This document shows, one piece after another, positions 17,174 through 49,216 of a DNA stretch of 64,000 nucleotides (its first letter is position 1; the number at the start of each line of letters is the position of its first letter). The stretch spans positions 1 through 64,000 of the forward strand of contig JAKSOU010000002.1 of the NCBI GenBank assembly GCA_024405435.1, written 5' to 3'. The translations under genes and the position numbers were made by a program. The stretch comes from Akkermansia sp. Its GTDB lineage: Bacteria; Verrucomicrobiota; Verrucomicrobiia; Verrucomicrobiales; Akkermansiaceae. The notes under the pieces were generated by a model. The model saw nothing but the letters and a program-made list of their open reading frames with translations. It ran no database searches and was not told where the DNA came from.

Positions 17174-17206
17174 TGGCATACAGTATTTGGAATACTGTAG
17201 CAAGCC
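17174..17206 (-). promoter_or_regulatory. Promoter with a dyad as spacer, reading into the nitroreductase gene
   Basis: On the minus strand, TTGCTA, then the 17-nt dyad CAGTATTCCAAATACTG, then TATGCC, lie 10 nt before the ATG at 17164. The perfect arms are ACAGTATT/AATACTGT (17180-17198). An operator exactly filling the spacer is the geometry of MerR-type or steric repressor control. It is the mirror image of the element at 17338-17367. Confidence 0.5.
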
Positions 17207-17337
17207 TAAAAATGCACAACCCCAGAAAATGATGGGGCACATGGTATGATGAACTAGGCCTTCTGGCATTGCCTGTATGTCCCTATGGATGCTCCAATGC
17301 ATTGGCTATAAATCCTTTACATTTACATAGCGCAAAC

Positions 17338-17367
17338 GCTCCTACAGTATTCCAAATACTGTAGTCT
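17338..17367 (+). promoter_or_regulatory. Promoter with a dyad as spacer, reading into the F420H2-dehydrogenase-like gene
   Basis: CTCCTA, the dyad CAGTATTCCAAATACTG and TAGTCT are arranged as -35/spacer/-10, with arms ACAGTATT (17344-17351) and AATACTGT (17355-17362). With this -10 box the ATG at 17377 lies 9 nt downstream, so I prefer it to the ATG at 17368. The two dyads are inverted relative to each other, with centres 164 bp apart. Confidence 0.45.
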
Positions 17368-48875: not shown

Positions 48876-48986
48876 CCCGCCTGCCCATCAACCGGGCGGC
48901 AAAGAGCCGCCCGGGGTATCCCCCGGACGGCTCCCAACGCTGACAAGGTCTCGCATAGCGAGCTTGAAAGCACAAACACACACATG

Positions 48987-49008
48987 AAAAAAACGGCGTT
49001 CTCACGCC
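48987..49008 (-). terminator. Intrinsic terminator of the tiny RNA
   Basis: A 5-bp stem GGCGT/ACGCC with a GAGA loop is followed by a run of seven U on the minus strand. Confidence 0.6.
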
Positions 49009-49027
49009 TACAATTGTTTCCAATTGC
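48987..49027 (-). ncRNA. Candidate tiny RNA of about 40 nt
   Basis: On the minus strand, downstream of a TTGCCT/TATACT promoter, the sequence forms a hairpin CAATTG-GAAA-CAATTG (49026-49011), then GGCGT-GAGA-ACGCC followed by GTTTTTTT (49008-48987), a clear intrinsic terminator. A GTG-initiated frame runs through the terminator but looks non-coding. It could be a regulatory RNA or the product of early termination. Confidence 0.45.
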
Positions 49028-49033
49028 ACGGCC

Positions 49034-49063
49034 AGTATACAGCATTCCTAATGCTGTAGGCAA
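49034..49063 (-). promoter_or_regulatory. Promoter with a dyad as spacer (left copy of the second cassette)
   Basis: On the minus strand, TTGCCT (49063-49058) and TATACT (49039-49034) flank an 18-bp spacer that is a dyad, ACAGCATT/AATGCTGT (49039-49057). It is the best promoter of the four dyad copies and reads toward the tiny RNA. Confidence 0.6.
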
Positions 49064-49186
49064 GACTTTTTTTCAAAAAAGTGCAAAAAAAGCAGATTGC
49101 GACCCAATCCGACCGTGCGCGGAACGGACGATTCAAACCGCGAAAATTTTTAAGCGCCTTATTATTAAGGTGTTGTAATTTTTTCT

Positions 49187-49216
49187 TGCCTACAGCATTA
49201 GGAATACTGTAGGCAT
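49187..49216 (+). promoter_or_regulatory. Promoter with a dyad as spacer (right copy of the second cassette)
   Basis: TTGCCT, the dyad ACAGCATT/AATACTGT (49192-49210) and TAGGCA follow the same layout in the opposite direction, reading into the 3' end of trpB as antisense. The -10 box is weak, so this copy may be mainly a binding site. Confidence 0.4.

Follow-up and report, generated by a model that had tools for sequence, protein, structure and literature searches.

The window analysed here, a 64,000-nucleotide stretch of an Akkermansia sp. contig, probably contains a clade-specific Akkermansia small RNA gene of about 130 nt on the minus strand, running from about 49027 to 48900, whose promoter appears to span one end of an inverton. 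The "dyad cassette" at 49038-49211, which a sequence-only reading had taken for a promoter arrangement driving a roughly 40-nt RNA, is, as far as its sequence tells, an Akkermansia inverton of a genus-wide family. That reading had overlooked two features, namely that the dyad pair looks like an invertible element and that the RNA would belong to a dispersed multi-copy family.

The dyad pair at 49038-49211 consists of palindromes of the form TACAGYATT-NNN-AATRCTGTA (n=2) in inverted order, with the following organization:

49038 to 49058, no strand assigned: left inverted repeat, TACAGCATT-CCT-AATGCTGTA, doubling as the promoter spacer
49059 to 49190, no strand assigned: putative invertible segment with TTGCC at both inner ends, supported by homologues in both orientations and by triplet matching
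49191 to 49211, no strand assigned: right inverted repeat, TACAGCATT-AGG-AATACTGTA, its triplet complementary to the left one

The dyad pattern was found 8 times in the 64-kb window versus 0.02 matches expected, and the source genome holds 22 matches for the forward pattern versus none for a reversed control. The inverted repeats thus enclose a short segment and carry compatible crossover cores, the central triplets being matched. Indeed, the triplet varies among elements, yet in 30 of 32 of them the two ends carry reverse-complementary triplets, including where the arms have diverged. Since site-specific inversion requires reverse-complementary triplets, this matching fits an inverton; a transposon target-site duplication is ruled out, as the triplets match in inverted and not in direct order. 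Furthermore, part of a promoter lies on the segment and points outward, with the -35 at 49063-49058, and A. muciniphila-type elements, like those at paralogous genes, have such an outward -35 on the segment too. Two terminator-like hairpins are located within the inverton, one per strand (49093-49111, minus; 49153-49186, plus), and may serve to insulate it from its convergent neighbouring genes on either side.

A TACAG-type dyad is present in 27 of the 97 genomes searched (the source genome and relatives), all 27 belonging to the same genus, and paired dyads are usually spaced by 143-182 bp. The closest named relatives of the source genome are Akkermansia MAGs. Besides the element at 49038-49211, the source genome carries the following members:

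Window 17179 to 17363: second inverton of the same family, with triplets TGG/CCA and TTGCTA-17-TATGCC pointing left, in the direction of a gene on the minus strand
Contig C13 (L010) of the source genome, 2486 to 2678, 5012 to 5189 and 7805 to 7982: three invertons

Like most family members, the inverton at 17179-17363 has its -35 at one end only. The three elements of C13 each lie directly upstream of one of three paralogous secreted-protein genes. TTGACA faces the gene in two of them (most clearly as TTGACA-18-TATGCT) and lies at the far end in the third, which places the -35 on the segment, the repeat in the position of the spacer and the -10 in the fixed flank. By this arrangement, two of the C13 invertons look ON and one looks OFF. 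The C13 paralogues code for large, autotransporter-like secreted proteins that carry a sorting signal at the C-terminus. Dyads were not found at the corresponding position in the AAA-gene relatives L045 and L046. Two further dyads, L009 2409 on contig C8 and L159 38 on contig C126 of the source genome, share the same unusual bases AGGGATAC and are located at two contig ends; from their sequences, they look like the two parts of a single inverton that the assembly split, as would happen if the sample held both orientations.

Tyrosine recombinase genes directly adjoin dyads. For instance, on contig C126 of the source genome the dyad lies at 38 and the gene starts at 70. Comparison of coordinates places dyads next to tyrosine recombinase genes also on G006 C83 and C88, G005 C14, G042 C57 and G035 C17, and further on G010 C148, G002 C53, G007 C15 and G013 C4. 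In the source genome, two different recombinase genes each have one dyad just upstream (L164 2245, contig C35, and L159 38, contig C126), one of these dyads being of the CGGATT type and the other of the TACAG type. The sequence context suggests that the site beside a recombinase gene reflects the specificity of that recombinase. The A. muciniphila repeat motif CGGATT..AATCCG (Jiang et al. 2019, as cited in PMC13343947) is not matched by the window repeats, which read TACAGYATT..AATRCTGTA. The CGGATT motif reaches 22-88 copies in some Akkermansia genomes and 2 in the source genome, where TACAG-type repeats are found instead; across the genus, the two arm types have nearly complementary distributions. 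Their coexistence within one genus suggests that the recombinase system changed specificity.

The RNA gene adjoins the left end of the inverton, and its predicted elements are, in the direction of transcription:

49064 to 49090, minus strand: T-tract/A-tract behind the left -35, UP-element-like; present in 8 of 10 copies and absent from the two flipped ones
49058 to 49063, minus strand: -35 TTGCCT on the invertible segment; TTGC kept in 10 of 10 copies
49034 to 49039, minus strand: -10 TATACT, located in fixed DNA and with its first two bases forming the outer end of the repeat; TAnnnT kept in 10 of 10 copies
48898 to 49033, minus strand: four-hairpin RNA, full model match, with the predicted transcription start near 49027
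49009 to 49028, minus strand: hairpin A with a GAAA loop, TGCAATTG-GAAA-CAATTGTA; six of seven pairs with changes on both sides
48987 to 49008, minus strand: hairpin B followed by U7, an attenuator at most; no U-run in four homologues
48963 to 48986, minus strand: near-invariant G/U-rich core CATGTGTGTGTTTGTGCTTTCAAG; one variable position in seven copies
48939 to 48971, minus strand: hairpin C
48904 to 48933, minus strand: hairpin D, GC-rich, -32 kcal/mol, likely terminator

Positions 48899-49065 of the window match several places in genomes G030 and G109 with about 76-85% identity, and the aligned copies have in common the promoter, hairpins A and B, the core, hairpin C and the GC-rich hairpin D. 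A covariance model matches 4 of 76 Akkermansia genomes (two copies in the source genome, four in G030, four in G109 and one in G001), and the family members are 125-155 nt long. Several homologues share a covarying secondary structure. In the seven-row alignment, 6 pairs changed on both sides, a number reached by none of 500 shuffles, so that the compensatory changes in the hairpins, which the sequence-only reading had proposed as a check, are indeed present. The fourteen-row model alignment, which is fitted to the model and includes four rows in which only hairpin D is matched, on the reverse strand, gave 14 pairs, again above all 500 shuffles; ten related RNA copies are few for such statistics. 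The RNAs also fold strongly, with z from -4.0 to -7.6.

As that reading had anticipated, nothing here looks translated: no conserved frame runs through the hairpins and single-base indels separate the copies, which makes the RNA probably non-coding. The 64-aa ORF at 48984-49178 was rejected as a coding candidate, since its frame is disrupted by indels from copy to copy and, in one of them, ATG is replaced by ATA. In Rfam 15, no family reached its gathering score, the matches being weak and far under these scores, and the plasmid collection gave no match. The copies on contig C92 of the source genome and on G109 C36 adjoin a common neighbouring gene (94% identity, 467 residues), which makes it probable that the RNA's long and short forms are true homologues. 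The unit lies beside trpB also in G109 C43 and probably in G030 C125, a contig that ends just inside a trpB-like end.

The spacer between TTGCCT and TATACT is 18 bp long and lies inside the perfect dyad. The promoter pattern alone is weak, with 2 matches versus 0.7 expected. However, TTGC-17/18-TAnnnT occurs in 10 of the 10 RNA copies having upstream sequence and ends 0-1 nt before the model start. Six of these ten copies have no intact dyad; the promoter is thus part of the RNA gene itself, and only some copies have the inverton. The left promoter proposed earlier is thus upheld by conservation, not by match statistics. A right promoter had also been proposed, giving RNA antisense to the end of trpB. 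TTGCCT is present at that end, G109 C43 lacks a -35 there, and the -10 TAGGCA is TAGGCC or TAGGGA in relatives; a conserved antisense-trpB promoter is not supported by these comparisons.

Both hairpins on which the shorter transcript had been based are present, at 49028-49009 and 49008-48995 (the latter with the stem GGCG..CGCC), as are the seven T at 48993-48987. Termination at U7, which would release an independent RNA of about 40-45 nt, is nevertheless unlikely: although hairpin B and U7 can be recognised as a terminator in the window copy, the most conserved stretch, the near-invariant core, lies past U7 together with hairpins C and D. Other short homologues have five T after hairpin B, and the four long forms (C92 of the source genome, G109 C43b, G030 C20 and G001 C8) keep the hairpin without the U-run. 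Hairpin D, at -27 to -32 kcal/mol, is 3-5 times more stable than hairpin B, at -6 to -11. The absence of the U-run in four copies, the conserved core beyond B and the greater stability of D point to a conserved product of about 125-155 nt, about 135 nt in the window, and judging from the sequences the RNA most likely ends at hairpin D (48933-48904). Premature termination at U7 in the window copy is possible.

Quite unlikely, too, is an attenuated leader, in which hairpin B would stop most transcripts and read-through would reach a downstream gene. It would suit G030 C125 and G109 C36, where the unit is just upstream of a coaB-like gene of the same direction, but in the window, G109 C43 and G109 C51 the RNA runs towards a convergent gene, facing its 3' end, and read-through would be stopped by hairpin D. 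It is very improbable that the whole unit is a non-functional, MITE-like mobile repeat, as could be suggested by its terminal inverted repeats, its usual sizes of 143-182 bp and the dispersal of its copies among different neighbouring genes, given that the triplets do not match as direct target duplications, that the RNA unit exists also without dyads, and that RNA structure and promoter are both under constraint.

The reading as a small RNA gene fed from an inverton is further informed by the orientation of the segments. The RNA-linked segments lie in opposite orientations, one way in the window and G109 C43 and the other way in G109 C51 and G030 C125, and their inverted alignments score 32-48 versus shuffle maxima of 22-24. 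The two orientations were thus observed between homologous loci and species. In the first orientation, a T-tract/A-tract stands behind the -35, as in the inverton-free copies; in the second, the tract is absent. TTGC is present at both inner ends in three of the four RNA-linked invertons, whereas G109 C43 and the remaining 28 elements carry one at a single end. With a -35 at both ends, flipping should modulate transcription and not abolish it.

We propose that a tyrosine recombinase flips the 170-bp segment, the partner sites being aligned by their matched central triplet. Sequence and conservation show the -10 in fixed DNA by the RNA, the -35 and upstream A-tract on the segment, and the repeat as the 17-18 bp spacer. 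In most invertons of the family, a flip would separate the fixed -10 from its sole -35. At the window inverton, it would instead swap the A-tract behind the -35, tuning RNA output with no switch-off. The RNA is predicted to fold into hairpins A to D with the G/U-rich core exposed, and its probable mode of action is base pairing in trans, though no target was found: for the complement of the core, the search of the source genome gave no other near-perfect site. With a looser pattern around start codons, there were 15 matches versus 1 for the reversed control; ATGAAAAA is common at gene starts anyway, which makes this a lead only. Longer family members without invertons (L181, L185, L186 and L179) have a UUUCAUGG loop in hairpin A, which, by its sequence, could base-pair with CCAUGAAA-type start codons. 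It is a tentative idea that inversion varies a trans-acting RNA in this way, one flip then altering several unlinked genes at once.

Invertons have been described mainly as switches of capsule and surface proteins. In A. muciniphila, ON/OFF inversion of an element at the phase-variable cps1 capsule locus was shown (PMC13343947), and the CGGATT..AATCCG element was recovered as inverton group 138 (PMC11892184). These invertons resemble that of the window in their paired ATT-NNN-AAT repeats, matched triplets and common spacing of 150-180 bp, and in TTGAC or TTGC beside the repeat, a comparable layout being found at some CGGATT..AATCCG elements. The window inverton differs in its arms, TACAGYATT..AATRCTGTA in place of CGGATT..AATCCG, in having a -35 at both ends, and in adjoining a small RNA gene and not a capsule or surface gene.

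The invertible capsule promoters of Bacteroides, with their Mpi recombinase system (cited in PMC11892184), are likewise numerous. They are of similar size and are believed to have recombinases in common. Whereas Mpi belongs to the serine recombinases, the candidates neighbouring the Akkermansia elements are tyrosine recombinases, and here the repeat doubles as promoter spacer. The matched triplet offers a simple rule for how dozens of invertons per genome could avoid cross-recombination.

A literature search of incomplete coverage found no inverton-driven small RNA and no Akkermansia small RNAs. Through an inverton that feeds a conserved non-coding RNA, phase variation would extend to gene networks; with half a promoter on flippable DNA, this gut Akkermansia species may vary the expression of a regulatory RNA as it does that of surface proteins. 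With bacterial trans-acting small RNAs, the window RNA shares a promoter of its own (here predicted), a length in the range of 100-150 nt, a conserved core and a terminator hairpin. It departs from that class in belonging to no Rfam family, in being confined to one Akkermansia clade, and in having a promoter that would lie partly on an invertible segment.
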